From positions 1-59,384 of IMG/VR virus record IMGVR_UViG_3300042485_000753: a stretch of 59,384 nt of DNA. One strand, 5' to 3'. The DNA comes from a virus. Position numbers and translations under genes: made by a program. Positions 351-53,910 of the stretch are shown in pieces. Numbering within the stretch: position 1 is the first letter of the stretch; every line of letters begins with the position of its first letter. The notes under the pieces were generated by a model. That model did not search any database, had not been told where the DNA came from, and saw only the letters and a list, made by a program, of their open reading frames with translations.

Positions 351-1484
351 TTAATTTCCTGTAGGAATATCTTTTTTAAACCAGTTTAAGTTATCTCTTT
401 CATGTCTTTGATACCATCCTTTATCAGTATGTACATCTAACACATTTTGAAAATATTCTTCATACATGGGTGCTACTTTATCAAGTGTAAAATTCTCAGC
501 CCATTGTCTGCAATTCTTTGGATTGATCAAGTGTATGTTTTCTGTAGCATGAACAAACTGATCAAATGTGCGACAACGATACCCTGTTAATCCGTGTATG
601 TTGTTTTCAGTAAACGAACCCCAGTCTGTTGTGATAGTAGGTGTACCTGAAAGCAGCATTTCTATCTGTACCCCGCCAAACGGTTCTACATACATTGATG
701 GTACAAATGCGCCTTTAGCACCAGCCATTAGTTTTTTTCTTTTCTCGGTATCTGCGTATCCTACAAATTCTACATGGGGAGGAAACTTTGTATTATCGGG
801 ATTTTGTCCTGCGATAACAAGTTTCTGATTAGCTGCGGCAGTAGCTTGAATAGCAATATTAATACCTTTACCAGAATATACTCTACCTAGAAACAAGAAA
901 TAGTCTTCTTTCTTTTCTTGAAAAGTAAAATCATCGGGATCAAAGTAGTTTGGAATTACACAATCATACCAGTCTTGTTTACAAGTGCCCACATTGTCTA
1001 ATCCGCAGTAAGCGTGATAGATAGCATAGCTTTCAAATACTTTCCAACGAGCCCAATGTCCACCGGCATAACCAATTCCCGGCTCTACTGTGATCAAGTC
1101 AGGATGTGCGTCACACACTGGTCTTACACCTGATCCCCAAAATGGTAAGATAAAGTCATGTTTTTGTTTTCTTTTACCAACTTCTATGATTGCGTTCTTA
1201 TAAAAAGTTTGATACGCATGATCTCCGGTATTAAACTTGAAAAAGTTATTACGCCAATCATAATTACCATATGCTATTTCTAAGTCTTTGTTAGTAATAA
1301 CGGTAACATGTTCATCACATATAAGATCAGAATCTTCGTGACCATAATGAATAATTGTATGTCCTCTGGCTTTCATCATTTTGCCAAACTTAACAACTTT
1401 TTGCGTATATGCGCAAGCAGAGTATTCTTTGCTTGATACGGTGTGCGGTAAACCTAATATGTGAAATGTAAATTTTTGAGTCAT
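351..1484 (-). CDS. Glycosyltransferase, GT-B fold (GT4-like)
   Basis: 377 residues. The C-terminal half has the GT4 nucleotide-sugar domain: [19 protein letters not shown], then KLVIAGQ, and an acidic segment [19 protein letters not shown] matching the E-x7-E donor-binding region. The N-terminal half is the acceptor domain. It sits directly after the tail-fibre operon, so modification of a virion or host-surface glycan is plausible. Its ATG follows a terminator hairpin whose loop contains a perfect TATAAATA box, so it may have its own late promoter. Confidence 0.85.
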
Positions 1485-1488
1485 TAAA

Positions 1489-1525
1489 AAACCTGCTATA
1501 AAGTAATAATATTTATAGCAGGTTT
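1489..1525 (-). terminator. Rho-independent terminator with embedded late box
   Basis: A perfect 14-bp stem (1489-1502 with 1512-1525) encloses a 9-base loop and is followed on the minus strand by six T. It ends the fibre region transcript. The 3' arm and T-run end only a few bases before the ATG of the glycosyltransferase. Confidence 0.85.
1510..1517 (-). promoter_or_regulatory. Late-promoter-like box TATAAATA
   Basis: Exact match to the T4 late promoter consensus, inside the loop and arm of the terminator. With T4 geometry transcription would begin near 1504, giving the glycosyltransferase a leader of about 20 bases. Confidence 0.55.
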
Positions 1526-1561
1526 AGTATGTATTATAATTTTACGGGCTTTTATGGATTG

Positions 1562-1810
1562 TTAACCTATACGCCAGTTAGTACCATCACACCAAACACA
1601 TACAGTATTTGAACCGCTGTTACCTACAATTGCACCAAAGTTTCCTACCGGTGCTAAGTTAGCGTCACTGACAAATGCTCTAAATCCTGCTACTGCAAAT
1701 TGACCGGATGGTAATGTATCCACTGTTAGCACAGGACTTTGAGTAACGCCGACTTCAGTAAACAAATAGTTTTTAGCATTGGTTGTTAATTTAATACCAT
1801 TTACTGAGGT
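1562..1810 (-). pseudogene. Vestigial tail-fibre tip (C-terminal fragment)
   Basis: An 82-codon open frame with no ATG and no ribosome site, preceded in frame by TGA. Its product resembles the last ~85 residues of the fibre at 7109-8596: both contain a GVEL/GIKL segment, then RAF(I/V)(T/S)D(G/A)NL, GNFGA, and end TNWRIG. At DNA level both 3' ends share 17 identical bases (CCTATACGCCAGTTAGT on plus). It lies beyond the stop and terminator of the 1733-residue fibre, so it is probably an old fibre end left after tip replacement. It could instead be the untranslated tail of a frameshifted gene. Confidence 0.65.
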
Positions 1811-1856
1811 TCAGACCTTGCTTGAAGAAGTAGATTCACTTCCGAAAGAGTAATTA

Positions 1857-1880
1857 GAAAGCCCCCGAAAGGGGGCTTTC
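1857..1880 (-). terminator. Terminator after the long tail fibre
   Basis: A perfect 10-bp stem GAAAGCCCCC/GGGGGCTTTC with a TTTC loop lies directly downstream of the fibre stop at 1892. The following T-tract is short. Confidence 0.75.
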
Positions 1881-1891
1881 TTGTATTATGA

Positions 1892-4800
1892 TTATGCGTT
1901 TGGTGCCTTGATAACCATAAATCTTATAGTGATTGTCTCATCACTAGTTGTAAAACCACTGATGTTTACAATGTTTAAAAAGAATCCAGGGTTGAATCCA
2001 CCGATAACAGCAGGGTTTGCAATACAGTTATATGTTCCTTGGTTAGGACTAACTATTTGTGCTAATACAATATCATTATTAGGATCCACTGAACTATTTG
2101 TGACAGAGAATGTATCAATTTCGGTTGCCACCATAGCAGCACTAGTTGTTATAATAGTTCCTGCTATAGCATTGATAGTTACCCCGGTGCCTCTATTTGT
2201 AGCTTGAGTAACAGTTGAACCTGATGCATAACCAATCTTACCTGTTGAAGTCAATGTACCAGTAACATTAGCACCGGTGCCAGTGACTGTCATAGTTGTA
2301 TTACCAACTGCGTTTATAATAACATTACCGTTTGCTGTTGCGATAGAAACATTACTGTTACCGTTAGCGATGATAGATGATGATGGAATAGCAGCGAATG
2401 CACCGTCGCCTAACAGTACCTGACTTGTGTTTCCATTCAAGTTGATAGTGGCGATATTACCAAATGCTGCTGAACCATTAGCAAATTTAATTGCTACTGC
2501 ATTACCCGGTAGCGTCAAGTTACCTGCACTGTCAAACGCCCAAGTATTGAGTGTACCAGTAGCATTAGTTTGAATGGTAGCATTAGTAGCATATGCTGAT
2601 ACGATACTAGTTGCAGCTCCTGCATTAGTCATTGACAACAATTGTGCTGGATTGTTTGTACCATTATCAACTGCTGCAACACCGATAGAAGCATTTGCTA
2701 CTGTCTTGATGAATCCGCCCGATGACCCTGGGATAATCAAGTTACCAGTACTATCAAACGTCCACAAGTTTGAATTAGCATTTACAGTAACATTTGAGTT
2801 ACCGTTAGTAAATTGTAGTGCGCTTACACTAGAGAAGCCACTAAGTGTAGGAGCAGGACTTGCACCACTGCCTACAATAGAGCCGGGTACAATCAGATTA
2901 CCAATCAAACTACCAACTGTTGGTAATGTTAGGTTGCCATCGGTACCAAATGTCCAATCAGTTGGTAAAGTATTATTATTGGCTTGATTTGCTGAAATAT
3001 TATATTTGGTTATTACAAATGTGCCAGTACCACCATCTACTCCGATAACATCACCGTTGGTATAACCTGTTCCAGGATTGCTTACACTAACACTAACCAA
3101 CTGACCACTTATACCATATCCAAAGTTGACAGTCATTCCTGTACCAGTACCACCTGTTGTCGTAGTTGGTAATGGAGTACCACTAGTATATCCACTACCT
3201 GCATTTTGTATAGTGCAGATATTGTATTCAACTTGTGCTGTTAATGTTAGGTCGTCTGTCCACGGTGCAATAATAGTAGCAATATCGGGTAATGTTAATG
3301 TACCGTCTGCTCCAAATGTCCATTGATTTGTTCCGGTGTTTAGCGATATTGCGCCAGGAGCAGTTGGACCAGCACCACTATATATTGCGACATTGCCACC
3401 TATATATGGTCCTGTAGCATTTCCGCCTCTTAGTGTAAGGTCTCCACCTACTTCTCCCCAACTCTGATTACCTATATTGGAACCTGCATCACCGGCAGTG
3501 ATTGTTAGGTCACCGCCTGCTCCGGAATTCCAACCAGTTGCAGCAACGCCGCCTGTACCAGCAGTGAGTGTTAACGGAGCCCCGGCTGTACCGGTTGTAA
3601 AGCCAAGGACAGCATTGGCGCCGTTAGGAGTTACAAGACTGCCCGGTACTGTTAGAGTACCATTTACACCAAAGGCCCATGTATTAGCATTGGCTGTGAT
3701 ATTAACACTAGTATTAGCAGTTTCACTTATTTGGCTACCTTGAGGCAATGTCAATGCACCGGCTTCATTAAATGTCCAAATCTTTGCATTCGCACTATCA
3801 CCTGAATTGGCTTGTGCGGTTAAGACCACCTTGGCAAGATCGTCTCCGCCGAGTCGGGTAACAGCGACAGCCGCATACTGAGATGCCGCATTAGGATTTA
3901 CAGTCCAGGCTAGTGCCGCAGAACCACTATTACCTTGTCCTTGAACGCTGAATAACTTTCCACTGTCAGCAATGATCTTAGGATACTGAACGTTTCCGTT
4001 ATAATCAATTGATACACCAATAGGTAATGTTAAACTACCGTCTGTGCCAAAGTCCCATAGATTAGGTCCAGCGTTACCACCATTTTGTCCTACTGCTATT
4101 CTAACAATCTTTGATCCTGAAGTAGGATTAGCATATACTGCCGCTATATTACTAGTGCCGACGTTGCCAATATCTTCTACCCAAAGACTTGATACACCAC
4201 CGTTACTACTACTTGATACTGATAGTAATGGTACATCATTATTTGATTGTAGTAATGCAACATTTGATCCAAATACATTTGTAAGACCATTGATTACTAG
4301 ATTACCTGGTAGTGTTAAGTTACCAGTTGTGTCAAATGTCCAACTGTATTCAGTATTGCCGCCTGAGTTAGCCCAAATCTGAAGATTTGCTGTTGAACTA
4401 ATTTCACCATCATCAGGATAAATCTTAATTGCGTCCCCATTGAAACCAGTGAATATAGTAGTAAGAGCCGAAATACCAAGATTAGCAGGACCTGCTAAAT
4501 TTGCATCAATTGCACTAATGCTAGGATTTGCACCACCGACAATAGTTAAGATAGGATCAGCAGTATTAGGATCAGTATCACGCGGGAATGCTAGAATACC
4601 AGTAGTATCAAATGTCCAAGTGTTACCGCCGCTGTGAACGAATAAGTTAGGAGCGGCACCGTTATAGTAACCTACTTCAAAACTTGAATCTTCGCCACCT
4701 AAGAAGATATTAGCATCTGGTTCGTCAATATTTGCACCTGGTGCTCGTAAGTGAATATGACTTGGACCAGTTGGGTCAATAACTAATGATTGTGAGGTAT

Positions 4801-7093
4801 AATTTTGATCCGGTGTAAAGACCATTGTGCTGACATTTGCATTATTTGGATCCAAAGAACTGTTAGCGATACTTTGAATCACACTGTTGCCACCTGCTAA
4901 TATTAAATTACCAGTTGTGTCAAATGTCCACATAGCAGTATTGCTATTACCATCATTACTGTTGATGACAACATTACCTGTATTTGCTAACTTAACATAG
5001 AAGTTATCACTACCTAAGAACAACTCGGTTGTATACAAGTTTCCACTTGTCATATGTATATGGTCACCGTCATTCGCAGTTGGATATATTAATAACTGTT
5101 GATTGGCAGTAGTTCCACCTATTGGTTTTAAAGCAATAGCACTACCACTAAGTGCTTGGTCTGGAATGTTGGTTTCATGAACAATACTGCCTAATGGTAA
5201 TGTTAAGTTGCCAGTAGTATCAAATGTCCAAGTATGTGTGCCATTGGCATCACCGGCTTGTATAGACACATTACCATCAACATTGACAGCGACATTAGCA
5301 AAGTCATCAGTACCGAGAATAACAGTTTCACCGTTGCCGGCAATGTGAATGTCTGGACCTGCGGTTAAAAAGATATCTAAATATGCACCAGCATTAGCCG
5401 AATCAGGTTGTAGTTTTAAGTTTCCTGTGCCAATGACATTAATATTATTGAATGTTACATTACCTGTATTAGCACCACCGCCACCAATTGATACTTGAGT
5501 ACCGTTAGCGTAGTTAACTGCAAAAGTATTACCTGGTAGTGTTAGGTTACCGTCATCCTGAAATTGCCATTGCCAAGCATTGCCGTTGGTATCAGTATAG
5601 ATGTTTACTGCACTAGATGCTTCAAGACTGATAGCACTAGTGCTACCAATATCAATGTTGTTGCCTTCATTACCAATAGTTCCGCTATTAGGTAGTTGAA
5701 TTATTCCATTACCGTCAAATGTCCAGGTGCCGCCGGCTTGAATCACAACACTACCTGCCAATCCGCTAGCATCAGCGGCGCCTGAAGTTAGATAGATAGT
5801 GCCACCAGGATCACCATTACCTGTGCTATCACCGGCTTCTATGTATACATCACCACCGCTATCACCTAGGTCAATATTGCCATTGTTATTACCGGCATCG
5901 CCTGCACGAAGTGTAAGAGAACCGCCGCTTTGTGCAGAGTAATTAGCACCTACGGCATTACCGCCTCGACCGGCCTCTATACGAATGAATCCACCATCAC
6001 CACCAAAATCAAGATTGGCTGCGCCACCACGACCGGCTTCAATGATAACATCACCGCCGCTAGAATCACCATCTTCAGCACTATCACCTGCATAGATATT
6101 AATGTCACCACCTTCACTGGTAGATCCTATATCACGATCACGGGCTTGTAGTGTAATATCGTCGGCTGAATATAGATTGATATCTGCACCGTTACCAGTA
6201 GCACGGTTGTCAAATTCTATTGTATTGGATCCAATAATAATTCCTGGGATGCCAATATTGCCGGTAGCACTGTCAAATGTAAAACCAGAATTAGCACCAA
6301 AATTACCATTGTCATTAAACTGTATTTGTGTATTAGAACCACCAGGTGTACCGTTGCCCCCGCCGGCTACTGCCGCAAATACTCCGTTACCGTACAACAC
6401 ATTAGCATTGCTACCGTTTAGATTTATACTTGCAATGTTTCCCAAAGTACCGATATTGCCGCCAGTTAATTCAATACTATCCATAACAATACTGTTGCCG
6501 TTAGCAGTGATTGTAGCATTACCTAGATATAGTGTATTTCCTGTTAGATATAAATCTCTCCACCTATGTGTAGTATTACCTAGGTCAGATGCGTCATCAG
6601 TTGCAGGTATTAAATCTGTTAATGCTAGTAAATTAGCAGTAGGCCCGGTGGCGCCTGTTACTCCAGTAGCACCTGCGGCGCCTGTTACTCCGGTCGCACC
6701 TGTTACTCCGGTCGCACCTGCCCCGGGAGATGCCCAAGATAATGCTCCGCTGCCGTTAGTAGATAAAACATAACCTGCTGTTCCGCCGGTGATAGTAACA
6801 TTACTAACAGGTCCTAAATTTGATAATCCACTTACTGTAAGATTTGCTAGTGTTCCTACTGATGTAATAGCAGGTTGCGCAGCATTACTTACTGTCTGTG
6901 CATTGATAGCTTGGGCAGCAGCAGCAAAATAAGAGCCGCCTGCTCCACTCAAAATCAAGTTACCTAGTATTTGTAAGTTTGCTTTTTCTGTTGTAGGTGT
7001 ACCTGTCATGTTTACTACTGGTACTAATGTAGTATAAGCTATTGAGTTTCCTATATTGTTAAGTGCTGTTATTTTAATACTTGATATGCTCAT
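1892..7093 (-). CDS. Long repetitive tail fibre
   Basis: 1733 residues. An N-terminal ~120-residue region is followed by a collagen-like GATGVTGATG stretch (about residues 127-150), then a body of about 13 diverged copies of the pattern W-x-F-x3-G-x-L-x2-P (for example WTFDTTGNLTLPG) separated by 60-110 residue spacers rich in G, N and T. The C-terminal ~120 residues (from about STGKIGYASGSTVTQATNR) look like a trimeric fibre tip. Likely a host-recognition fibre or part of the tail-fibre complex. Short Shine-Dalgarno ACAGGA precedes the ATG, and it is probably co-transcribed with the fibre gene just upstream. Composition is extremely poor in K, C and H. Confidence 0.85.
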   Translation of the reverse strand: MSISSIKITALNNIGNSIAYTTLVPVVNMTGTPTTEKANLQILGNLILSGAGGSYFAAAAQAINAQTVSNAAQPAITSVGTLANLTVSGLSNLGPVSNVTITGGTAGYVLSTNGSGALSWASPGAGATGVTGATGVTGAAGATGVTGATGPTANLLALTDLIPATDDASDLGNTTHRWRDLYLTGNTLYLGNATITANGNSIVMDSIELTGGNIGTLGNIASINLNGSNANVLYGNGVFAAVAGGGNGTPGGSNTQIQFNDNGNFGANSGFTFDSATGNIGIPGIIIGSNTIEFDNRATGNGADINLYSADDITLQARDRDIGSTSEGGDINIYAGDSAEDGDSSGGDVIIEAGRGGAANLDFGGDGGFIRIEAGRGGNAVGANYSAQSGGSLTLRAGDAGNNNGNIDLGDSGGDVYIEAGDSTGNGDPGGTIYLTSGAADASGLAGSVVIQAGGTWTFDGNGIIQLPNSGTIGNEGNNIDIGSTSAISLEASSAVNIYTDTNGNAWQWQFQDDGNLTLPGNTFAVNYANGTQVSIGGGGANTGNVTFNNINVIGTGNLKLQPDSANAGAYLDIFLTAGPDIHIAGNGETVILGTDDFANVAVNVDGNVSIQAGDANGTHTWTFDTTGNLTLPLGSIVHETNIPDQALSGSAIALKPIGGTTANQQLLIYPTANDGDHIHMTSGNLYTTELFLGSDNFYVKLANTGNVVINSNDGNSNTAMWTFDTTGNLILAGGNSVIQSIANSSLDPNNANVSTMVFTPDQNYTSQSLVIDPTGPSHIHLRAPGANIDEPDANIFLGGEDSSFEVGYYNGAAPNLFVHSGGNTWTFDTTGILAFPRDTDPNTADPILTIVGGANPSISAIDANLAGPANLGISALTTIFTGFNGDAIKIYPDDGEISSTANLQIWANSGGNTEYSWTFDTTGNLTLPGNLVINGLTNVFGSNVALLQSNNDVPLLSVSSSSNGGVSSLWVEDIGNVGTSNIAAVYANPTSGSKIVRIAVGQNGGNAGPNLWDFGTDGSLTLPIGVSIDYNGNVQYPKIIADSGKLFSVQGQGNSGSAALAWTVNPNAASQYAAVAVTRLGGDDLAKVVLTAQANSGDSANAKIWTFNEAGALTLPQGSQISETANTSVNITANANTWAFGVNGTLTVPGSLVTPNGANAVLGFTTGTAGAPLTLTAGTGGVAATGWNSGAGGDLTITAGDAGSNIGNQSWGEVGGDLTLRGGNATGPYIGGNVAIYSGAGPTAPGAISLNTGTNQWTFGADGTLTLPDIATIIAPWTDDLTLTAQVEYNICTIQNAGSGYTSGTPLPTTTTGGTGTGMTVNFGYGISGQLVSVSVSNPGTGYTNGDVIGVDGGTGTFVITKYNISANQANNNTLPTDWTFGTDGNLTLPTVGSLIGNLIVPGSIVGSGASPAPTLSGFSSVSALQFTNGNSNVTVNANSNLWTFDSTGNLIIPGSSGGFIKTVANASIGVAAVDNGTNNPAQLLSMTNAGAATSIVSAYATNATIQTNATGTLNTWAFDSAGNLTLPGNAVAIKFANGSAAFGNIATINLNGNTSQVLLGDGAFAAIPSSSIIANGNSNVSIATANGNVIINAVGNTTMTVTGTGANVTGTLTSTGKIGYASGSTVTQATNRGTGVTINAIAGTIITTSAAMVATEIDTFSVTNSSVDPNNDIVLAQIVSPNQGTYNCIANPAVIGGFNPGFFLNIVNISGFTTSDETITIRFMVIKAPNA

Positions 7094-7108
7094 TTTATTT
7101 TCCTGTTT

Positions 7109-8596
7109 TTATCCTATACGCCAGTTAGTGCTATCACTATATACCGGAACATTGTTAGCCCCGCCTCCGGAAACCATGGCTCCGAAATTTCCTGCTGCTA
7201 CTAAATTACCATCTGTAATAAATGCTCTACTACCTGCTCCTGCAGTAGATGCTGAAGGCAAAGCAGAGTACAATGCTGCGGTAGATTTTACCACCATTCC
7301 AACTGTAACGTTTGCATTTATACTTACAGCATTGGCGGTGTTAGCAATTAATTCAACACCATTATTAAAACGAATATCTGCTTGTTTAAATGGAACATCC
7401 AGTCCAACTAGTCCTAGATTGATCCATTGTAAGTCAAGACCATAATCAAATCCTGAACCACCTGTGCTATTTTTCATGCTTACGCCATAAGCAGCAGTAG
7501 CAGTTGTTAAACCACCGTCACCATCTAAATAAGCAACAACCGCAGCGTCCGCAGTAGTTGTTTGATCGCCCACAACACCAAGCACCCCGGCTTTTATAAA
7601 ATTACTTGCGTTTGTTCCAGTAATTAAGTATTGTCCAGTAACACCGGTTAAATAGTTGCTATTACCAGTTAAGTTAGAACCCGTAATACGACCACGTAAA
7701 CCCTGTGCGCTTGCTGGACTATTAGGATCACTGCTTCCAAAAGCAGAACTAACAGTAAGGATTGAACTAGCACCTACAGTAGCACCTGCACCTACTGCAT
7801 TAGCAGTTCTCGTGATAGATACACTATTAGCAGCAATGTTGCTAGTTACTATATTACCAGAGAAAGTAACATTGTTTGGTAAGTTAACAGAAATAGTTCC
7901 CGCTGAAGTTACCGGGCTGCTGGCAACTACTAATTGAGAACTTGATATACCTACTGAAGTAACTGCACCTGAACTTGCAGCCGATACAGTAATATTGCCA
8001 GTACTACCGCTTAATGTTATTCCGGATCCGGCTGATAATCTTGTAACACCCGTATTCGTAACTGTAATGTTACCATTAGAAGTAATAGGGCCGCCGCTTA
8101 TTTGAATTCCTGCTCCTGGTATGAAGCCTACGCTAGTAACAGTACCTGCAATAACATTAGTAGACGCACTTGTTATTCTTCCTGTTGCATCTACTGTTAT
8201 TGTGGGATTAGTATATTGAGCAGCAGCTACTCCTGAACTTGCTAAGTTTAAAGTAACATTTCCAAAGTATCCGGTGCCTGTTAAACCAGTACCGGCGATT
8301 ACTCCAGTGATCGTACCATTACCACCCCCATTGCCACCTAACGAGTCAATTATGATTGCTCCGTTAGAGTTAGTAAGTATAATGTTATTACCTGCTACTA
8401 AGTTAGCAGATACAGTAATAGCGTTAGCTACGTTGCTTATTGCTATACCGTTACCTGCTAAAGGCGTAGGGCTAGCGTTAGCAAATAAATTAGTAAAATT
8501 GTCTTTAGTTTTATTGAAGGCAGCGTATAGTGAATCACTGCCTGTAGATTCATTAGGGAGCCCTATATTGATTTGTTGTAAACCTTGTATAGCCAT
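7109..8596 (-). CDS. Tail fibre protein with TNWRIG tip
   Basis: 495 residues, low-complexity and rich in G, N, S, T and V. The N-terminus (MAIQGLQQINIGLPNESTGSD) is typical of proteins attached to a baseplate or neck. The central region holds repeated beta-rich motifs (GAGIQISGG, GSGITLSGS), and the C-terminal ~90 residues form a tip also found as a fragment at 1562-1810. A late-promoter-like box lies at 8618-8624 with an AGGAC ribosome site. First gene of the fibre operon. Confidence 0.8.
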   Translation of the reverse strand: MAIQGLQQINIGLPNESTGSDSLYAAFNKTKDNFTNLFANASPTPLAGNGIAISNVANAITVSANLVAGNNIILTNSNGAIIIDSLGGNGGGNGTITGVIAGTGLTGTGYFGNVTLNLASSGVAAAQYTNPTITVDATGRITSASTNVIAGTVTSVGFIPGAGIQISGGPITSNGNITVTNTGVTRLSAGSGITLSGSTGNITVSAASSGAVTSVGISSSQLVVASSPVTSAGTISVNLPNNVTFSGNIVTSNIAANSVSITRTANAVGAGATVGASSILTVSSAFGSSDPNSPASAQGLRGRITGSNLTGNSNYLTGVTGQYLITGTNASNFIKAGVLGVVGDQTTTADAAVVAYLDGDGGLTTATAAYGVSMKNSTGGSGFDYGLDLQWINLGLVGLDVPFKQADIRFNNGVELIANTANAVSINANVTVGMVVKSTAALYSALPSASTAGAGSRAFITDGNLVAAGNFGAMVSGGGANNVPVYSDSTNWRIG

Positions 8597-8617
8597 TTAT
8601 ATTAGTCCTGTATGATG

Positions 8618-8624
8618 TATTTAT
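8618..8624 (-). promoter_or_regulatory. Late-promoter-like box ATAAATA
   Basis: TGATAAATAC, followed after about 16 bases of leader (with AGGAC) by the ATG of the 495-residue fibre gene. Confidence 0.6.
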
Positions 8625-8650
8625 CATACCTAAATAAAATAGGACACTTG

Positions 8651-9496
8651 TTACATCACAAAGATTTTACCAACAGAACTAGATAGTACATCATCAAACA
8701 TGTACTCCATGTCTCTACCTAATATTTCTGCTGCTTCTCTAGCGTCTTCGTTGTTTTTATATTCAGGTTTCATGTTTAAGTATTGTGAAGGATTGCCCCA
8801 TACTTTTCTGCCATAACCTAGATTACCAGGTAATGGTTTAAAAGTTACTTTACCGGTGCCTAAGTATTGAGCAAATATTTCATATAAGAATTCATACGGT
8901 CTTTTTATTTCATTGTTTCTACTACTACGCTGAGTACCGATAGCATTGAACAGAGCATTGTATTCTGGAGTTAAGTCTGATTTCATAGAACCAGATCCAC
9001 CGTATGCTCTGCCTTTATTATAGTATTCATACAGCATAGAGTTAACTTGATTAAAGAAATGTTTTTCTGCTTCTTTCCAAGTACTCCATCCTGTATTTTT
9101 ACGAACACCCGCTTGAATAGCATGACCAAATCTGTGAGCCATGATCCATGGGGTCATTGGCACTTTAGCATCACCTGCATTTCCTACGAAAACTACAGTG
9201 ATAGCATCTTCACTACCTGCGATTATTTTTTGTGCTTGCTCATCGCCAAAGATTTCTTGTAGTTTAGCAGCATCAGCCGGGCCATACTCAGAGTACTTAC
9301 CAGTACCCGATATGTTGCTAAAGAACAGTCTAAAGTCGTAGGGAGTCTTTTCTAAGAATCTTTGTGTCTTTAAGATATTTGTAGGATGAGGCACTAGTTT
9401 CTTATCAGGTCCTTTGAATGGCCCCGGTTTATTAAAGTCGCCCATGGTGTCATAGCTTTGTAATGGTGCTTCCGTAATAAAATCTGTTGCTCTCAC
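8651..9496 (-). CDS. Zincin-like virion protein (HRFGH motif), probable packaged cargo
   Basis: 281 residues. The N-terminus MRATDFITEA matches a T4-like capsid-targeting peptide with an I-T-E cleavage point. Around residue 123 it has PWIMAHRFGHAIQAG, which aligns with the HExxH helix of zinc metallopeptidases but carries R in place of the catalytic E. A later glutamate-rich helix (YEFLYEIFAQYLG) could supply the third ligand. It may therefore bind metal without classic protease activity. Stop and start overlap with the upstream gene (ATGA), so it is co-translated with another tagged protein. Exact role unknown. Confidence 0.55.
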   Translation of the reverse strand: MRATDFITEAPLQSYDTMGDFNKPGPFKGPDKKLVPHPTNILKTQRFLEKTPYDFRLFFSNISGTGKYSEYGPADAAKLQEIFGDEQAQKIIAGSEDAITVVFVGNAGDAKVPMTPWIMAHRFGHAIQAGVRKNTGWSTWKEAEKHFFNQVNSMLYEYYNKGRAYGGSGSMKSDLTPEYNALFNAIGTQRSSRNNEIKRPYEFLYEIFAQYLGTGKVTFKPLPGNLGYGRKVWGNPSQYLNMKPEYKNNEDAREAAEILGRDMEYMFDDVLSSSVGKIFVM

Positions 9497-9894
9497 TTTG
9501 GATATCCTTTAAATCCTTTTACTGGAGATCCTTTATTTGTGTCTAACATTTCGTCACTACCTTGTGAACTTACTGTTTTTATTCCCTTCTTATTAACTTT
9601 TTTCAATGCTTGTTGAATTACTTGTTTAACATCGGGATCAAAGCTACTTATTATTAAATTAGGTCCCCACTTACTTTGAGCGCGAAACTCTGGAGTTTTA
9701 TGCGCATGTACATTATCATTCCCGCTTTCACCTCGCACTGCTGCTACCGCAAGACCAAAACGATAAATGTCATAAAAATTACTATTGTTTATTTCTGGCA
9801 TCATATAAGTATTTGGTAACGATAACGCTGCTACATCTAGCGCATCATGTACATCTGATAACTGTTGTTCTGTTAAAAACTCTTTAGCTCTCAT
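9493..9894 (-). CDS. Conserved phage protein with capsid-targeting-like N-terminus
   Basis: 133 residues, starting MRAKEFLTEQQ (L-T-E cleavage-like point). The middle has YRFGLAVAAVRGE, a pattern I associate with uncharacterised small virion proteins of marine T4-like phages. No catalytic motif is visible. It overlaps its neighbours by 4 bases on both sides, in a run of four coupled genes (8651-10618). Confidence 0.6.
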   Translation of the reverse strand: MRAKEFLTEQQLSDVHDALDVAALSLPNTYMMPEINNSNFYDIYRFGLAVAAVRGESGNDNVHAHKTPEFRAQSKWGPNLIISSFDPDVKQVIQQALKKVNKKGIKTVSSQGSDEMLDTNKGSPVKGFKGYPK

Positions 9895-10067
9895 CTTTTC
9901 TTTACTCTTCCTCTAAACCCTTGAGGGAAACTGTCAGTATTTACCGGTCTATTAAACCATTCTGGTGATCCAATCTTATAACTTAGTTGTTCTGTAGTTG
10001 ATTGTTCTTTAGTTTCTTTTATACCAGCTATTCTTTTCCACTGTGCTAGTTCTTGATCATGTGTCAT
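9891..10067 (-). CDS. Small hypothetical protein (58 residues)
   Basis: Starts MTHDQELAQWKRIAG and ends in the basic tail GFRGRVKKR. Its ATG overlaps the stop of the superoxide dismutase gene and its TGA overlaps the next ATG (ATGA). This perfect coupling in an otherwise empty gap supports it being real. The segment GSPEWFNRPVN is the only distinctive stretch; no function is recognised. Confidence 0.75.
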   Translation of the reverse strand: MTHDQELAQWKRIAGIKETKEQSTTEQLSYKIGSPEWFNRPVNTDSFPQGFRGRVKKR

Positions 10068-10618
10068 AAACTCTTACCCCACCTGGTAGATATCACATTC
10101 CAGTTGATAATCTTCCACTGTTCGTTTAAGTACTTTTCTTTGTCAGTTCCATAGTCCAACAAAAATGCATGTTCCCACCAGTCAATGAGTAACAATATAT
10201 CATCTCTGACTTCATGATTCTTGATTGTTTTAATCTTGCCGTCGTAGGCCAAGTAAGCCCAACCTGATCCCTGTATAGTCATAGCTTCTTTCAAAAACTC
10301 ATCTTTAAAGTTTTCATAACTTTTAAAGTGTTTGTTTATAAAACTTAACACAGGACCATTAGGTTTATTGTTGTTTCTTACTTCACGATACTGAGTGAAT
10401 AACGTGTTATGTAAAAATGCTCCTGCGAAATTAAACTCAGGATCTCCTTCACCAGCATTATATCGCGTAGCATAAGCGTGGGCAAGTTTGCCATAGTGTA
10501 GTTCTATGGTATCTTTACTCATAACGGGACTAACTTCACTATCAGTAAAGTTGCGTTTGATTATCTCAATGTCTTGAGGTTTTGACTTTTGTTCTAATAA
10601 ATTTATAATATCGCGCAT
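10064..10618 (-). CDS. Fe/Mn superoxide dismutase-like protein
   Basis: 184 residues, close to the family's ~190-200. The four metal ligands are visible: H41 (IELHYGK), H70 (AGAFLHNTLF), D146 and H150 (DWWEHAFLLDYG). Also GSGWAYLAYDGK and the C-terminal INWNVI typical of the family. The usual NHxFYW is altered to LHNTLF and the outer-sphere Gln of FeSOD is not at its normal position, so activity needs testing. The N-terminus MRDIINLLEQ extends ahead of the fold and fits a capsid-targeting peptide with an L-L-E point, so the enzyme may travel in the virion. A late box lies just upstream. Confidence 0.85.
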   Translation of the reverse strand: MRDIINLLEQKSKPQDIEIIKRNFTDSEVSPVMSKDTIELHYGKLAHAYATRYNAGEGDPEFNFAGAFLHNTLFTQYREVRNNNKPNGPVLSFINKHFKSYENFKDEFLKEAMTIQGSGWAYLAYDGKIKTIKNHEVRDDILLLIDWWEHAFLLDYGTDKEKYLNEQWKIINWNVISTRWGKSL

Positions 10619-45605: not shown

Positions 45606-46049
45606 TTAACTCACCTCTGTCCTTCCATCACCGATATCTTTAGTTTGAATTACTCGCATTTGTTGAGCGCGAGTGTCTGGATCTGCTTGTTGCTGTTCAT
45701 ACATTTCTAGTACTACGTTTCTGCATACTTGTGTAAACCAACGATCTACGATATCTGCATCAGTATCGTCAGGTTTCATTTTGTACCCAGCTTTAATTAA
45801 GTTTAACACAAACTTATCGTTCCAGTCAAGATCAAATGAACCATTATTAATATCATTTGGATCAACATCAACTTTCAAAATATTGATATATGGGTCACCT
45901 TTTGCGGTTGCTTGTTCTTTTGCGCTTAGTGTGGGTTCAACTGGTTTAGGTTTTTTAGCTCTAGGCTTTGGTTCTTTAACAGGTTTTTCTACTGGCTGCT
46001 CTGGTTGTGCTTCAGCTTTCTTAAATAGATTTTTCAGTTTATCAAACAT
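45606..46049 (-). CDS. Conserved phage protein with duplicated 3' end
   Basis: 147 residues from ATG 46049 (AAGGAG site; the longer frame is rejected). A K/P-rich N-terminus leads to GSFDLDWNDKFVLNLIKAGYK and DTDADIVDRWFTQVCRNVVLEMYEQQ, which I recognise from marine T4-like phages. Its 3' end is repeated at 43861-43970 beyond the methyltransferase cassette. Function unknown. Confidence 0.75.
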   Translation of the reverse strand: MFDKLKNLFKKAEAQPEQPVEKPVKEPKPRAKKPKPVEPTLSAKEQATAKGDPYINILKVDVDPNDINNGSFDLDWNDKFVLNLIKAGYKMKPDDTDADIVDRWFTQVCRNVVLEMYEQQQADPDTRAQQMRVIQTKDIGDGRTEVS

Positions 46050-47061
46050 TAGTTTTCTCCTTAATGTATGTATCGTATAATGCAAAGCTAGCAAGGTTTT
46101 TTGCTTTGCTTTCGCACAGCATGTCGGCCCACTCATTGTGAGTTATAGCCCAATCATTAACCGCTGTGTTCCAATAGTAATCAGAATGAGCGCGAAGGTG
46201 TTGTTTTTTGTGCCCAGTTTCTAATAGTGTAGTAAGATTGGGTAGTGTGTTTTTACAATGATTAACTAAGTAATCTTCGCGTGAAACACTATAATGAATA
46301 ACAGGTCTAACACCGCGCCAAGAATCAATCACTCGCTTGATACGATCATCTGTAGCTTCAATATACTCACCTGTTTTCACCCAATGATGATGAATATCTA
46401 GGACTAGTGCAACATGATCTGCAAGCTCAAGTGAAGCATCCAATCCCCATGTCATTTCGTCATTTTCAATAGTGATCATGTTTCTTGCTTCAGGAGACAA
46501 ACGAGGCAAAACGTCAATAATACCTTGAGGACCTTTTCTGCCAGAGATATGCACATTGATCTTAAAGTCTTGAAACTGTTTGCCATAGCCCATCATGCGA
46601 GCCATATCAACATGATATTCAAATTCTCTAATAGAGTTTTCTACTATAGAGGGAGTTTCCGAAGCTAGCACTGTAAACTGACCGGGGTGAAATGAAAGTC
46701 TAACGTTATGCTTTCTAGCAGTTTCACCAATGGGCGCAAATAGTTGCTCCATGCGCTTTACTACGTCAGGCAGTTTGTAAAAGTATTGCCAATCTTCGTG
46801 AGTGTAGGCTGTCATCATGTCGCTCGTCAACCTCACAATTCTAAGCTCAAGTGGAAGTTTAGCAACACGCATAACAAGATTATGTGTGTGTTTGATGTTA
46901 GTTTCCATTACTTCCCACATTTTGCGTTCAGCTACATTCTTGCCCACTTTTTTCAAGTAAGTAAGAGTAGTGCCGCCAGTGTTAAGACCTTCAACACTTT
47001 CAACAAGACCTTTCTTGTTGATTGCTACAAATTTACACGCAAATCCAATCTTTTTGATCAT
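46042..47061 (-). CDS. UV damage endonuclease (UvsE/UVDE family)
   Basis: 339 residues from ATG 47061, which follows a promoter at 47094-47121; the longer frame would start in the -35. RLSFHPGQFTVL, KINVHISGRKG, MITIENDEMTWG and LDIHHHWVKTGE are the metal-binding strands of the TIM-barrel family. It cuts 5' to UV photoproducts. Overlaps the next gene by 8 bases. Confidence 0.9.
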   Translation of the reverse strand: MIKKIGFACKFVAINKKGLVESVEGLNTGGTTLTYLKKVGKNVAERKMWEVMETNIKHTHNLVMRVAKLPLELRIVRLTSDMMTAYTHEDWQYFYKLPDVVKRMEQLFAPIGETARKHNVRLSFHPGQFTVLASETPSIVENSIREFEYHVDMARMMGYGKQFQDFKINVHISGRKGPQGIIDVLPRLSPEARNMITIENDEMTWGLDASLELADHVALVLDIHHHWVKTGEYIEATDDRIKRVIDSWRGVRPVIHYSVSREDYLVNHCKNTLPNLTTLLETGHKKQHLRAHSDYYWNTAVNDWAITHNEWADMLCESKAKNLASFALYDTYIKEKTNV

Positions 47062-47093
47062 TGTAGATACCCAGTATAATGATAGACTAGTTA

Positions 47094-47121
47094 AGTATAC
47101 ACGGTTATTTAGAAATGTCAA
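47094..47121 (-). promoter_or_regulatory. Sigma70 promoter for UV endonuclease
   Basis: TTGACA, 16 bases, TATACT, with a leader of about 26 bases. Confidence 0.88.
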
Positions 47122-47135
47122 TAGATTTGATGAGA

Positions 47136-47159
47136 AAGGGGTATATTATTATACCCCTT
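47136..47159 (-). terminator. Terminator after the gp88-like gene
   Basis: Perfect 10-bp stem AAGGGGTATA/TATACCCCTT with a 4-base loop followed by TTCTC. Confidence 0.7.
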
Positions 47160-47164
47160 ACATA

Positions 47165-48433
47165 TCAATGCTTTAAGAGTAGGGTACTTAGTACGCCCTG
47201 AGAGTTTGCTGTTAGATCGGGTTCACCGGGAGCAATGATAACATTCCATATATTGTTTATAGAATCTTTACCCTTTTTCTCCCATTCATCATAGCTAAGA
47301 ATAGTATTTTTATTTAAACCGTATTTAATTGCTAGTCTGTCTTTAAGAGTATCTAATGTTCCTGGCTGAAGTTGCCATTGTCCACTTGGTCCCTTTTCCA
47401 ACTTTCCGTCTTTCTTGAGCAACAAATCTTTGAATAATTCGTCGGGAACAATTCTAGAGTTCTTTGTTTTTTCTAAGTTAGGATCAGTTGCTTTAACTTG
47501 TCTTTCTTGTTGTTTACTAGCACCCTCACTCCAGTTTATCATAAAGTTGTCTGGTTTCTTTCCTAATGCTGCTCCAGCGATTTTAGTGTAAGCATAGAAA
47601 TTAACATCAGGTATAGATTGAGCCATTTTAAATGCCAAATCCATATACTGCGGACTAAAGAAATCCCCAGCATCGTGCCATCTAATAGTAACACGATATC
47701 CGTTTTTATCTCCTAAACGTTTTTCTTTTTCAATTTCGGTTTTCAATTGATTAAAGAACCCGTCTGGATCATTTAACAAATATGTTAATATTCTACCATC
47801 GCTTATCCATGCGTTCTTGAACTGAATCTTTCCGCCTTTCATAGCAAAACAATCAACTTTACATGATCCAGCACCCGGACATGTATTTACGATAATCAAT
47901 TTATTATCTGATTCATCAACTGCGATACCAGTTAACGCAGCAAAACCAACGTTAAAGAACTGTTCTAGTTCTCCGCTGGAGTGTTTCATTTTTTCGTTTT
48001 CTTTTAACAGTTCTTTTGGTCTTTGAGACAACACATCAATAACTTTCTTTTCGTCATATCTGTTACCCGCCGCATCGTAATATTCTATTACGCTAGATCG
48101 GTGCATGTATGGTAATTTATATCTATCTGTCTTTTCTTTACCCGATACATACTTTTCAATACCTTTCTTATCTACTTTAGGATTACCTTGTTTATCTAAG
48201 TCAGGTGTTCCTATGATTCTTTTCATATAATCTTGAAATTCTTGATCACCAAATTCTCTAGAAGGAGCCGAGAGTTTCGTAGCTTCGTCTACAACTTCAT
48301 CTTCCGAAATCTCGTCATCACTTAGTTCAGCTTGTACGAATTCTTCTGGTGACATTATCTCTACGCCAGCAGTTGACCCCGGAAGCGACTCTGCCGCTTC
48401 ATTAATAATATCTAAAAGTTTTCTAAAATCCAT
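47165..48433 (-). CDS. gp88-family protein with Cys cluster, probable cargo
   Basis: 422 residues. N-terminus MDFRKLLDIINEAAES has an I-N-E cleavage-like point. The core TCPGAGSCKVDCFA holds C185, C191 and C195, followed by YRVTIRWHDAGDFFSPQYMDL; this matches the phage 'gene product 88' family, whose Cys may bind an iron-sulphur cluster or metal. Role unknown. Late box at 48457-48463. Confidence 0.7.
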   Translation of the reverse strand: MDFRKLLDIINEAAESLPGSTAGVEIMSPEEFVQAELSDDEISEDEVVDEATKLSAPSREFGDQEFQDYMKRIIGTPDLDKQGNPKVDKKGIEKYVSGKEKTDRYKLPYMHRSSVIEYYDAAGNRYDEKKVIDVLSQRPKELLKENEKMKHSSGELEQFFNVGFAALTGIAVDESDNKLIIVNTCPGAGSCKVDCFAMKGGKIQFKNAWISDGRILTYLLNDPDGFFNQLKTEIEKEKRLGDKNGYRVTIRWHDAGDFFSPQYMDLAFKMAQSIPDVNFYAYTKIAGAALGKKPDNFMINWSEGASKQQERQVKATDPNLEKTKNSRIVPDELFKDLLLKKDGKLEKGPSGQWQLQPGTLDTLKDRLAIKYGLNKNTILSYDEWEKKGKDSINNIWNVIIAPGEPDLTANSQGVLSTLLLKH

Positions 48434-48455
48434 AATAAGTTACCTGTCAGTTGTA

Positions 48456-49298
48456 CTATTTATCTAAAGTAAGCAGTTGTTCAACAGTATACAACTCTAC
48501 CATATACGGTGAAACATTTTCTAATACACTTGATGGTAAGTCCCCTTTCCTCCTAGAACCTTCTTTAACTTTAAAGTCACAGTTGTTTACTTGTTTAAAT
48601 ATATCAACCATTTCTCTTACAGTGTGACCGATCCCGTGCCCTAAGCTTTCTACTTTGTTACTAGGAGTTTCAATAGCTAACTTTAATGCAGTACATATTT
48701 CCATAACATGTACATAATCTCTAACCGCTGTACCGTCCCATGATTCTCTATAGTCAGTACCAAAGATAGTAAACTCATCAGTGTCTCGTGCTTTCATTAA
48801 ATTATACATTAAGCCGTCAGGATTAGTTGGCTTGATACCATAATGACTACCGATCACATTATAAAATCTAAAAATAGTATAATCCATTGGCTTGTGTACA
48901 GTACACATTTCTCTTACACAATCTTCTGCTGCCCGTTTACTAATACCATATGCTGATTCACACCCAACCGCTGCTCCAGTAGATGCAAATATAAAGTTGT
49001 TAGTTGGTATTTTATTCATTACATTTGTTGTACCATTTAGGTTAGTAAAATAGTACAGCATAGGCATTTGTTCACTTTCCCCTACATTAACTAATGCTGC
49101 TAAGTGAATAACAGCGTCATATGGTTCAGTTTGATCTGGGATAGTAAACAGTCTAGTAATGTCTACTTGATAAAACTTTTTGATAGGTACTTGAGGTTCT
49201 TTAACATCTAAACCATGTATTTCATATTCGTTTTCTAATAGTTTGCAAAGATGTGAACCAATATACCCTGAGCAACCTGTAATTAAAATCTTTTTCAT
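48456..49298 (-). CDS. NAD-dependent sugar epimerase/dehydratase (GalE-like)
   Basis: 280 residues. Rossmann motif ILITGCSGYIGSHLCKLL and catalytic Y-G-I-S-K (YGISKRAAED), with AALVNVGESEQMP. Acts on nucleotide sugars, probably supplying the adjacent glycosyltransferases. Shares a base with the glycosyltransferase at 49298. Confidence 0.88.
   Translation of the reverse strand: MKKILITGCSGYIGSHLCKLLENEYEIHGLDVKEPQVPIKKFYQVDITRLFTIPDQTEPYDAVIHLAALVNVGESEQMPMLYYFTNLNGTTNVMNKIPTNNFIFASTGAAVGCESAYGISKRAAEDCVREMCTVHKPMDYTIFRFYNVIGSHYGIKPTNPDGLMYNLMKARDTDEFTIFGTDYRESWDGTAVRDYVHVMEICTALKLAIETPSNKVESLGHGIGHTVREMVDIFKQVNNCDFKVKEGSRRKGDLPSSVLENVSPYMVELYTVEQLLTLDK
48457..48463 (-). promoter_or_regulatory. 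Late-promoter-like box ATAAATA
   Basis: AGATAAATAG inside the end of the epimerase gene, about 20 bases before the gp88-like start. Confidence 0.55.
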
Positions 49299-50650
49299 TA
49301 TAATCCTTCAAATAATGCATTTGGTGTATCATCTGTTGGTACAAAAGTTAAATCTTTTGTTAACCATGTATCTTGATCTGTATATATTACTCTAAACTTG
49401 TGTTTATTAGATAATACGCTTTCAAAGTCCTCTCTTGCTATTTGTGTTCTGTTGAGGTCTTTTATATAGTCTTTGTAATTTACGGTTTCGTAAGTGTTTA
49501 TCTTAGCTGTATTAGTTTTTGCTTGTTTAGCTTTAAAGTCAACTAACAACTGTTCCCAGCCTTCTGCAACTTGATCATCTAACGATCTGACGTAATCCAA
49601 AGCTTCAGGAAGTTGATTAATACCAGCTAACGCCAAGATATATTCATGTGCTTGTGATAAACTTGTTTTATGATAGAATTTGCTATCAAAGTTATCTGAC
49701 CAATCTTGAGTATCTAGAACTACGCAAGGCATGTGTCCTAAACATTCTAAAAAGGCAAACGGATAGTTTTCTCTTAAACTAGGCATGAAAAATATTTTAG
49801 AACTTTTAATAAAGTCTACTTTTTCACTACCCACTATACCTGCTTTTATTTGATAGTCTGTTATACCTGCTTCTTTAAAAGCTTTTTCAAACTTTTTAGC
49901 ACCGTTGGAATTAGTCATTACTTTGCAGGGTAACTTACACTCTTTCATCACTTTAATATATGCTTCAGGGTTTTTACCTTCTTCCCATCTGCCGATAAAC
50001 AACACACCCGATTTAGTTCCTGCATAGGGTTCTAGTAATTGTCTTTCGCTCATTGGCATTTTTAACAGCTTACAATTAGTAGAACCATGTTTGGTTAATT
50101 CGTTGATATTTTTTTGACTTTGTGTTCCTATAATAATATCACTAAACTCCATGTGCTTGTTATAGAAGTTGTGATAACTTGATAGAAAAACATCACTACC
50201 TTGTGTTTCTCTAAAGATCATACTGTGTAAATGAGTATAGAACACGATTGGTATGTAGCTGTTTAGAGTCATTGCATAAGCAGCAGACATTGCTTCCTGT
50301 GTGTTACATATTAGCATATCATAAATGTTTGTTTCAAACCCGATAATAATAGATTTGCGAAAGTTTACTATCTTTTCAAAGTTAATAGTATCACTAAATG
50401 CAAATGTATTAGTATGGTCAGTGTATCTAAGGTTGTCTGAAGGATAAACAATGTTTGCACCTAATGACTGCAACAGTTCACTAAACTCGTTAGTAGGTTT
50501 TTTATCTACGATGATATCAACTTTCCATTGTAGTCTTGCACACATTTCAGTAAAACCTTTAGCAAACTGGCCTATCCCGCCATGAGGGATAAGATGCTGG
50601 TCGCTTATTAAAAATCCAATTCTTTTGTTATATGTTTTTATGTTCCCCAC
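49298..50650 (-). CDS. Glycosyltransferase, GT4-like
   Basis: 450 residues. Donor-domain motif VLFIGRWEEGKNPEAYIKVMKE and a later P-F-A-F-L-E-C-L-G sugar-nucleotide loop (NYPFAFLECLGHMPCVVLD). Adjacent to the epimerase. May glycosylate virion proteins, host surface or DNA; not resolved. Confidence 0.85.
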   Translation of the reverse strand: MGNIKTYNKRIGFLISDQHLIPHGGIGQFAKGFTEMCARLQWKVDIIVDKKPTNEFSELLQSLGANIVYPSDNLRYTDHTNTFAFSDTINFEKIVNFRKSIIIGFETNIYDMLICNTQEAMSAAYAMTLNSYIPIVFYTHLHSMIFRETQGSDVFLSSYHNFYNKHMEFSDIIIGTQSQKNINELTKHGSTNCKLLKMPMSERQLLEPYAGTKSGVLFIGRWEEGKNPEAYIKVMKECKLPCKVMTNSNGAKKFEKAFKEAGITDYQIKAGIVGSEKVDFIKSSKIFFMPSLRENYPFAFLECLGHMPCVVLDTQDWSDNFDSKFYHKTSLSQAHEYILALAGINQLPEALDYVRSLDDQVAEGWEQLLVDFKAKQAKTNTAKINTYETVNYKDYIKDLNRTQIAREDFESVLSNKHKFRVIYTDQDTWLTKDLTFVPTDDTPNALFEGL

Positions 50651-51483
50651 CTATTCCCAAAAAGCGGGATATGAAGTCTATCGCTGTATCTTAATCCATG
50701 TTTCATAGCTAGTTCAGCTACCCGTTGATTGTTTAACCTATATACGCTTTCTACGCCACCGATTGGCATCAAGTAAACAGGACCTTTGAACCCTTCTTTT
50801 CTATACAATTCAGTTACTTCTATAGCTTCCATAGCATCTTCATCGGTTGCTATAACAAACTTTAAGTAAGTGTATCCTGCATTTTGATAATCTACAACGA
50901 TTTCGGGAATAATAGCATCTTCACGTTTTTCACCTGAACAACTTAATTTAGGACTTACTGAAAATGTGATTTCTCTATCCCAATGCTGAGCCGCCCACTC
51001 ATTCCTTAAGTAATGTCTAAACTCTTTAAACAATGGTTGTGTGCCATTAGTTTCAAACGTAATCTCTTTTAATGATTGCATCTTTGGATGATTTAATAAG
51101 TCAGGATAAGATCGTTGCCACCCTAACAAAGGTTCACCACCAGTAATAACCAAATGTTCGTCACGCCATTCTTTAAATGGCAACAGATTAACTATTGCTT
51201 CAGCAATCGCATCAGTAGTAAGTTTAGGGGATAAGTGTTTAAAGTTTACATCCCAGCTTGCGTAACTGTCACAACCAGTCGTAACTAATGGCAAGTCATT
51301 ATAGTTTTTATAGCTTTTAGGATGAATTAGATTTCTTTCGTTACTGATTTCACCTTTAGGCATACCAAATCCTGAACAAGTGAAGTTGCAACCAAATGTT
51401 CGTAAGAATACACTTGGTACACCAGTATATCTGCCTTCTCCTTGTACTGAATAAAATAGTTCGCTGATCTTTATATTAGACAT
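50638..51483 (-). CDS. queE: 7-carboxy-7-deazaguanine synthase (QueE)
   Basis: 281 residues. Radical-SAM enzyme: FGCNFTC (C32, C36) and CDSYASWD (C71) give the three cluster Cys with a ~34-residue insert instead of the usual CxxxCxxC spacing; TGGEPLLGWQ and VSPKLS match the family. It converts CPH4 to carboxy-deazaguanine. Overlaps the small 51476 gene by 8 bases. Confidence 0.9.
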   Translation of the reverse strand: MSNIKISELFYSVQGEGRYTGVPSVFLRTFGCNFTCSGFGMPKGEISNERNLIHPKSYKNYNDLPLVTTGCDSYASWDVNFKHLSPKLTTDAIAEAIVNLLPFKEWRDEHLVITGGEPLLGWQRSYPDLLNHPKMQSLKEITFETNGTQPLFKEFRHYLRNEWAAQHWDREITFSVSPKLSCSGEKREDAIIPEIVVDYQNAGYTYLKFVIATDEDAMEAIEVTELYRKEGFKGPVYLMPIGGVESVYRLNNQRVAELAMKHGLRYSDRLHIPLFGNRWGT

Positions 51484-51679
51484 TTGTATCTCGTTTAGTT
51501 TTCAGGGTCGGGTTCTCTACCGGTCTGCATGATAACTGACTATCACACAAACCGTATCTAGTAGTTTCTGTTATTATCTCATAACCGTTGTAAATTACAA
51601 CCTTTTCGGTAGTTTCTGTTTCTAAAAACTTTTTAAAAGAACCAAGTGTGTCCCATTTTAACTTTTTGGGTACATACAT
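51476..51679 (-). CDS. Small hypothetical protein
   Basis: 67 residues from ATG 51679 (overlaps the upstream stop as TAATG). VPKKLKWDTLGSFKKFLETETTEKVVIYNG. Sits between queE and the phosphoribosyltransferase. Function unknown. Confidence 0.65.
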   Translation of the reverse strand: MYVPKKLKWDTLGSFKKFLETETTEKVVIYNGYEIITETTRYGLCDSQLSCRPVENPTLKTKRDTNV

Positions 51680-52227
51680 TACTTCCACCAGTTTTCCCAA
51701 GAAAACTCTATCCAAGAATCTTCTTCAGCTTTGTTAATAGACAAAGAAGTATAGGCTATATCTTTAAAGTCGCTGGCTTCATTGTTTATCAATGTAGCAA
51801 ACTTTACATTATGATTCCATACTGTATCCCAGGCATACCTTTCATTTGGCATACATGACGATTCCCAGTCTTTCTTAATCCATTTGATAGTTTCACCCGT
51901 ATCATTGATATCATCTACAATCAAGATATTCTTTCTACGTGATACGTCCCAACGTGACTTTTCAGTTTGTCTTATTTCAGTTGACAAGTAGCCAAAAGCA
52001 TGTTCAGGCATCCAAGCATTACACTCTTGTTGCGCATGGTCTCTTAAACTAACTCGCAATGTTTCCATTGGCACATTATAATACTGACTGATTAAAAGTG
52101 CAGGAAGTAAACCACCTCGCGTAATACCCACAACGTAGTCAGGTTTATATCCAGACAAAGTTATTTGTCTGATGATATCCATAGTCATTTTTTGTACATC
52201 TGAGTTTGATAACGTTACTGTGTTCAT
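51679..52227 (-). CDS. Purine phosphoribosyltransferase (Gpt-like)
   Basis: 182 residues from ATG 52227 with AAGGA before it. PRPP loop ILIVDDINDTGETI and VVGITRGGLLPALLIS fit type I phosphoribosyltransferases of the XGPRT/HGPRT group. It could return guanine or hypoxanthine to the nucleotide pool, or act on a base of the deazaguanine pathway. Confidence 0.8.
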   Translation of the reverse strand: MNTVTLSNSDVQKMTMDIIRQITLSGYKPDYVVGITRGGLLPALLISQYYNVPMETLRVSLRDHAQQECNAWMPEHAFGYLSTEIRQTEKSRWDVSRRKNILIVDDINDTGETIKWIKKDWESSCMPNERYAWDTVWNHNVKFATLINNEASDFKDIAYTSLSINKAEEDSWIEFSWENWWK

Positions 52228-52228
52228 A

Positions 52229-52693
52229 TTATCCTTCATAAATTGCTGAGTTAGCATCATGTTCAAATACTTCTACGCTTTTAACAGATACTGTTTTGTT
52301 TAATAATGTGCCTGCTTTTTGGCTTTCGTCTAAAATTTGCGTCATTTTCTTAAAAGCCATTTCAGCAAATCGTTCACATCCAACTGCTGGAACAATTCGC
52401 AAATCAGCTACATGTGTGGGCAAATTCTTTAACTGTTCAAGTTCGGGATCATCTTCAGCTACTAACAAAGTATGATCAAACATGTGTTCTAGCCACTGTT
52501 TAAATTCTTTAAGCCCGCCAAAATCCATGACCCAGTTTCTTTCATCCAAGCTTTCACATTCAAAGATGATTTTAACACCTATTGAATAGCCATGAAGTAG
52601 CGAACAATGACTATGAGTAGAACGCCACTGTCTAAAGCAACAGCTTAGTCCCCTGTCATTACCATATGTTTTTGTACTATAAAACTTACCCAT
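52229..52693 (-). CDS. queD: 6-carboxytetrahydropterin synthase-like protein (QueD)
   Basis: 154 residues, T-fold. FRQWRSTHSHCSLLHGYSIGVKI contains the catalytic Cys and zinc His residues (the usual HGH is HGY, with H27/H29 nearby), and WVMDFGGLKEF and FDHTLLVAEDDP complete the family pattern. It converts dihydroneopterin triphosphate to CPH4. Adjacent to queE and folE. Confidence 0.88.
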   Translation of the reverse strand: MGKFYSTKTYGNDRGLSCCFRQWRSTHSHCSLLHGYSIGVKIIFECESLDERNWVMDFGGLKEFKQWLEHMFDHTLLVAEDDPELEQLKNLPTHVADLRIVPAVGCERFAEMAFKKMTQILDESQKAGTLLNKTVSVKSVEVFEHDANSAIYEG

Positions 52694-53150
52694 TCTTTCT
52701 CTCCGATTCTGTTACTCGTTTACGTAAACTACTAGAGCTAAAACTATGATTTCTTTTATTATAAATGATTTCTATGTCAATTGCAAGACAATATTCTTTA
52801 CCAGTGAAATCTTTGTCCATGTACTCTGCTCCCAATATACGAACATCTACTGGAAGTATTTTTAGTAAATCAAGCAAGTCTTGTTCAGTTTGGTATACCA
52901 CAACTTCATCTACAAACCTACATGAACTTAATTGTATCTGTCGTTCAACGATACTTTGTACTGGTTTGTTTTTGGTGTCAGGTCTATCTATAGTTGGATC
53001 AGTTTGTAATCCAGCGATCAGGTAGTCGCAGTGATTTTTAGCTTCAGCTAACATTGCTATGTGTCCGGCATGAAGAAGGTCAAAAGCAGAAAATACTATG
53101 CCTATCTTTTTTCCTTCTTCTTTTAATTGTCTAATTACATTAAAGATCAT
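52686..53150 (-). CDS. Cytidylyltransferase-like nucleotidyltransferase
   Basis: 154 residues. AFDLLHAGHIAMLAEAKNHCDYLIAG has the HAGH motif and SFSSSSLRKRV the C-terminal nucleotide motif. Related enzymes make CDP-glycerol or ADP-heptose. In this cluster it may supply an activated sugar or alcohol. Substrate unknown. Confidence 0.82.
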   Translation of the reverse strand: MIFNVIRQLKEEGKKIGIVFSAFDLLHAGHIAMLAEAKNHCDYLIAGLQTDPTIDRPDTKNKPVQSIVERQIQLSSCRFVDEVVVYQTEQDLLDLLKILPVDVRILGAEYMDKDFTGKEYCLAIDIEIIYNKRNHSFSSSSLRKRVTESERKNG

Positions 53151-53908: not shown

Positions 53909-53910
53909 GA

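Follow-up and report, generated by a model that had tools for sequence, protein, structure and literature searches.

Downstream of its active long fibre gene, the large virus of bacteria (jumbo phage) analysed here carries the detached end of a second fibre, which is probably an untranslated scar of fibre replacement, left when a fibre end with one tip (tip Y) displaced an end with another (tip X). The window, i.e. the whole stretch of 59,384 nucleotides, was compared with contigs from IMG/VR. The features at and around the scar are as follows:

351–1484, minus strand: glycosyltransferase, directly downstream (PHROG 3408, E = 1.7e-201; syntenic with contig L001)
1562–1807, minus strand: orphan tip X, the last 81 codons (SVNGIKL...TNWRIG) and stop of a long-fibre C-terminus, with 91–95% nucleotide identity over 246 nt to fibre ends in L083–L090
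1805–1807: recombination joint, with TCA common to both parents, or TCAGT (1803–1807) if the parent was L169-like
1806–1853 (start approximate), plus strand: last 15 codons (EVQTLLEEVDSLPKE) and stop of a convergent 67-aa gene, which in its complete form adjoins the same terminator in L119/L168, L170 and L169/L171
1856–1881: hairpin of a bidirectional terminator, separating the fibre end from the convergent gene; the same hairpin is present in L119 and L170, and in L169 with the loop flipped
1892–7093, minus strand: the active long fibre of 1733 aa, containing WTFDTxGNLTLPxG repeats
1892–2242, minus strand: tip Y, which makes up the last 116 residues (KIGYASG...IKAPNA) of the active long fibre and is also found on fibres in L012, L116, L119, L128 and L170
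1902–1906, minus strand: second joint of the mosaic, at GCACC within the conserved tip-Y 3' end (...IKAPNA*), where identity switches from L116 to L119/L170
7109–8596, minus strand: upstream 495-aa fibre, with a weak match to a PHROG tail-fibre family

In the sequence of events that we infer, the ancestor would have had a long fibre ending in tip X and adjoining the glycosyltransferase. DNA from a relative would then have come in, bringing a tip-Y fibre end, the terminator and the adjacent part of the convergent 67-aa gene, and one of its ends would have joined illegitimately inside tip X via 3–5 nt of shared sequence. The product would be the arrangement seen here, an active tip-Y fibre with its terminator, followed by 15 codons of a foreign 67-aa gene, 81 codons of tip X and then the glycosyltransferase. 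In support of this course, the terminator and the 67-aa gene come after a tip-Y fibre in L119 and L170; counting against it, we did not find where the replaced segment begins upstream. The scar records how such swaps take place and, as one more case of an already known type of event, is otherwise ordinary; the papers that we found describe no comparable scar of a phage fibre. Fibre-tip exchange is usually inferred from clean mosaics, whereas here the debris remains in place, with both parents, the illegitimate joint and the homologous joint readable within about 100 bases.

The orphan tip matches long-fibre ends of other phages

An open frame runs on the minus strand from 1810 to 1562, with the terminal residues ...VWCDGTNWRIG*. 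Over 246 nt, tip X and the terminal part of a 739-aa fibre in L083 are 94.7% identical (E = 1e-107), which excludes chance as the source of the match. Eight other IMG/VR contigs contain tip X at 91–99% amino acid identity, and in all eight it closes a long ORF, of 313, 739, 1156 or 1490 aa where the ORF is complete and cut by the contig end in the rest; the DNA 3' of the tip-X stop is mostly dissimilar from one of these contigs to another. All other tip-X copies found are ends of fibre reading frames, and searches of phage records and bacterial genomes gave no match to tip X. The fragment is thus nearly identical to the end of complete genes elsewhere (fibres of 313–1490 aa), as in a recombination scar.

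The initial annotation had described a start-less open frame resembling a fibre tip, lying beyond the stop and terminator of the 1733-aa fibre, and had taken it for a vestige left by recombination at the fibre locus. Each of these observations holds: the remnant has no in-frame ATG (TTG and GTGs are present), it lies past the fibre stop (1894–1892) and the hairpin, and the proposed comparison with related phages did turn up fibres ending in this tip, so that a vestige of recombination is supported, with the long-fibre ends of other phages as its close relatives. The extent given, 1562–1856, needs correction, as tip homology covers 1562–1807 while 1806–1853 is the opposite-strand end of a different gene. 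The reported match to the tip of the neighbouring 495-aa fibre stands in part. That fibre terminates in ...VYSDSTNWRIG*, and it does share with the remnant TNWRIG and 17 identical 3' bases, which directly precede the third base of the last codon; its end (7112–7363) is, however, only a distant relative of tip X, the whole tips being 47% identical in amino acids. We therefore rejected the fragment as a duplicate of the 495-aa fibre's tip, considering its 91–99% identity to other phages.

An illegitimate joint is likely to have produced the orphan

Coming from the fibre side, 95 of 96 positions in the window agree with L119 as far as 1805, and 29 of 104 beyond it. Agreement with L083 is the reverse, 100 of 107 positions from 1807 onward and 19 of 93 before. 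The joint is sharp and lies between two identifiable parents (L119 to 1805, tip-X fibres from 1807), a further property of a recombination scar. Because the parents are alike at only 20 of 70 positions around the joint and share 3–5 nt at it, the break is the result of illegitimate recombination and does not lie at a conserved 3' end. The latter location, put forward in the initial annotation, does not apply to the orphan: the joint that made it forms the remnant's 5' boundary, some 240 nt ahead of the stop codon, where within the tip module the fibre abuts the end of an unrelated convergent gene.

The remaining part of the convergent 67-aa gene is missing from its place at the scar. A pattern search found the end of this gene in four loci; the gene faces a tip-Y fibre across the same terminator in L119/L168 and L170, and a fibre with a different tip in L169/L171. 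It has no PHROG or Pfam match. We found neither a complete 67-aa gene nor a complete 122-aa gene in contigs G001 and G002, whose coverage does not reach the region past the glycosyltransferase. Terminator-like sites numbered 3, compared with 0.4 expected in shuffles. The hairpin loop distinguishes L169/L171 from L119, L170 and the window, one group having TTTC and the other GAAA, as if the loop had been inverted between the hairpin's arms.

The conserved 3' end of tip Y carries a joint of its own. Upstream of 1902–1906, the tip-Y coding sequence follows L116/L128, with 79 of 80 positions identical to L116 and 61 of 80 to L119; downstream, 38 of 38 positions are identical to L119/L170 and similarity to L116 is absent. 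This second joint has the kind of location put forward in the initial annotation, but it is a separate event and did not give rise to the orphan.

Direction of transfer

The glycosyltransferase is probably native to the locus. L001 likewise has a fibre and then this glycosyltransferase, and synteny with it extends to either side of the fibre; identity to L001 is 70–82% for the backbone around the locus and 79% for the glycosyltransferase. In another phage (L053), the same small-fibre gene is succeeded by a tip-X fibre, and the glycosyltransferase lies 3.4 kb downstream. Relative to L119, the flanking backbone is only 67–71% identical, whereas the terminator and the end of the 67-aa gene are 99% identical. 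Given this difference, and a glycosyltransferase as diverged from L001 as the backbone, it is simplest to regard the L119-like end as having arrived later, at a locus to which the glycosyltransferase side is native. These uneven identity values, on which the direction of transfer rests in this one contig, suggest that a foreign fibre 3' end came in beside the native glycosyltransferase, cutting off the tip-X fibre.

The same joint would result from transfer in the opposite direction, with the 1733-aa fibre, the terminator and the 67-aa gene as residents and a segment containing the tip-X end and the glycosyltransferase inserted into the 67-aa gene. L119 and L170 indeed have the fibre, terminator and 67-aa gene in this order with no glycosyltransferase intervening. 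We nevertheless consider this direction unlikely, as the glycosyltransferase is approximately as diverged from L001 as the backbone and L001 has the same order of fibre and glycosyltransferase, and as the terminator segment stands out by its 99% identity to L119 against the backbone. The scar suggests that in these uncultured jumbo phages fibre ends can travel with the terminator and the edge of the next gene.

Expression and age of the remnant

The remnant is in the fibre's frame, and three in-frame stops (1894, 1888 and 1813) as well as the terminator stand ahead of it. Alternative in-frame starts within the remnant are TTG at 1765 and GTG at 1732 and 1723, with no obvious ribosome-binding sequence at any of them. 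Considering the stops and terminator upstream and the lack of an ATG or ribosome-binding site, the remnant is probably silent, and nothing points to its being part of a translated gene. Translation, either by stop readthrough from the fibre or from an own TTG or GTG start, would be in keeping with the shared frame and with substitutions among tip-X copies that are mostly synonymous; however, the synonymous pattern is expected from the past of these copies as fibre ends, and the tip-Y relatives end at the same stop without a tip X. Together with the stops, the terminator and the missing start signals, this makes translation extremely improbable.

Compared with the eight relatives, the changes private to the window are 2 synonymous and 0 nonsynonymous. 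The remnant thus looks young, in keeping with a recent event; a remnant still under selection would likewise keep its frame intact, and the changes to judge from are few.

Tip modules and their exchange

The whole tip-X module comprises about 174 residues, and in distinct fibres it starts directly after the body motif GNLxLPxG, usually WTFxxxGNLTLPxG. The 47-nt repeat encoding WTFDTxGNLTLPxG is present in 11 copies at ≥60% identity in 1480–9900, and such repeats may be natural places for homologous exchange. The orphan retains only 81 residues, the second half of the module, and its joint is therefore not at the usual module boundary. Only the last part of tip X is also found in L091, on a body resembling the 1733-aa fibre, indicating that the tip-X sub-domain is compatible with this fibre family; the remnant includes the sub-domain seen on other fibres. 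More generally, one N-terminal module occurs with several tips (X, Y, Z and others), so that the same body family carries alternative tips, and the bodies of tip-X fibres have segments in common with the 1733-aa fibre. The latter fibre, which is probably used in host recognition, has no match in phage records. Sequence matches of the tip module in the PDB were not significant, and an AlphaFold model of it (mean pLDDT 42.8) was unusable. What is one fused frame in the window, the 1733-aa fibre, corresponds in L116 and L119 to two separate reading frames, of which the first closes with a different tip (...EFGIAVD); this tip is also that of a first frame in L117 and L125.

The intact frame, with no amino acid change private to the window, the exchange of tips among these fibres and the L091 arrangement would each fit a maintained store that supplies tip sequence to active fibres by recombination, a role that the initial annotation had also thought possible. 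If that were so, a complete C-terminal sub-domain, in frame behind a terminator, could be recombined onto jumbo-phage fibres and change host recognition. We consider such a role highly improbable. Among roughly 170 loci there was no further orphan tip, save one match cut off by the contig end, and we found no indirect sign of transfer from a silent to an expressed copy. Moreover, the remnant is cut inside the tip module, the tip of the active long fibre is unrelated to tip X, and the 495-aa fibre offers only 17 identical bases, at which crossing over would remove the long fibre.

Relation to known systems

At the distal tail-fibre locus of T-even phages, modular tips are reportedly swapped between related phages, with joints at short conserved motifs. 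Similarly, the conserved tip-Y 3' end holds one of the joints here, and a shared body repeat marks the start of the tip-X module. Unlike at the T-even locus, the other joint is illegitimate, located in a neighbouring gene, and has left an orphan tip; the proteins, moreover, match no known fibre families beyond the one weak PHROG match. Displaced C-terminal ends downstream of an active long protein are also known from Rhs/CdiA-type proteins, for which they form serial arrays in bacterial genomes. The displaced end 3' of an active long protein would have arisen here in the same way, by end replacement, but as a single phage remnant and not as an array. Shufflons and invertible tail-fibre cassettes (R64 PilV, phages Mu and P1) likewise hold alternative C-terminal ends near one adhesin gene, as this locus does; in contrast to those cassettes, the tips here are not in inverted arrangement. 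No inverted repeats flank the tips, the sole pair of ≥20 nt in 1480–9900 being at 5515 and 8824, with 79% complementarity.

Contigs of the same phage

G001 (266,967 bp; L114) is identical to the window over 5906–45905 and starts inside the fibre at 5906. A second contig of the same phage, L115 (47,368 bp), stops at the same spot (window 5906–5909); across the 10 kb that we compared, both L114 and L115 match the window at 100%. An exact search of IMG/VR gave no second contig spanning the joint at 1805–1807, the principal weak point of our reading. An assembly or library chimera of two phages would be consistent with this, the contigs of the same phage ending within the fibre and no independent contig crossing the joint. 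It is nevertheless very unlikely, considering that the window is 100% identical to G001 across 40 kb upstream, that L001, syntenic on both sides, also has a fibre and then this glycosyltransferase, and that assemblers need more than a 3–5 nt overlap to join sequences. The last four bases of L115 (AATG) differ from the window and resemble L119-type fibres, a weak hint of coexisting fibre variants in the population.

At the far end of the window, 52 of the 56 differences from G001 over 45906–59379 fall within the last 340 bases (59046–59384), a cluster that could be due to either a sequence switch or a contig-end assembly problem. Upstream of the fibres, this phage genome also encodes a protein with an iron/manganese superoxide dismutase C-terminal domain (10064–10618, minus strand; Pfam PF02777, E = 2.4e-25).
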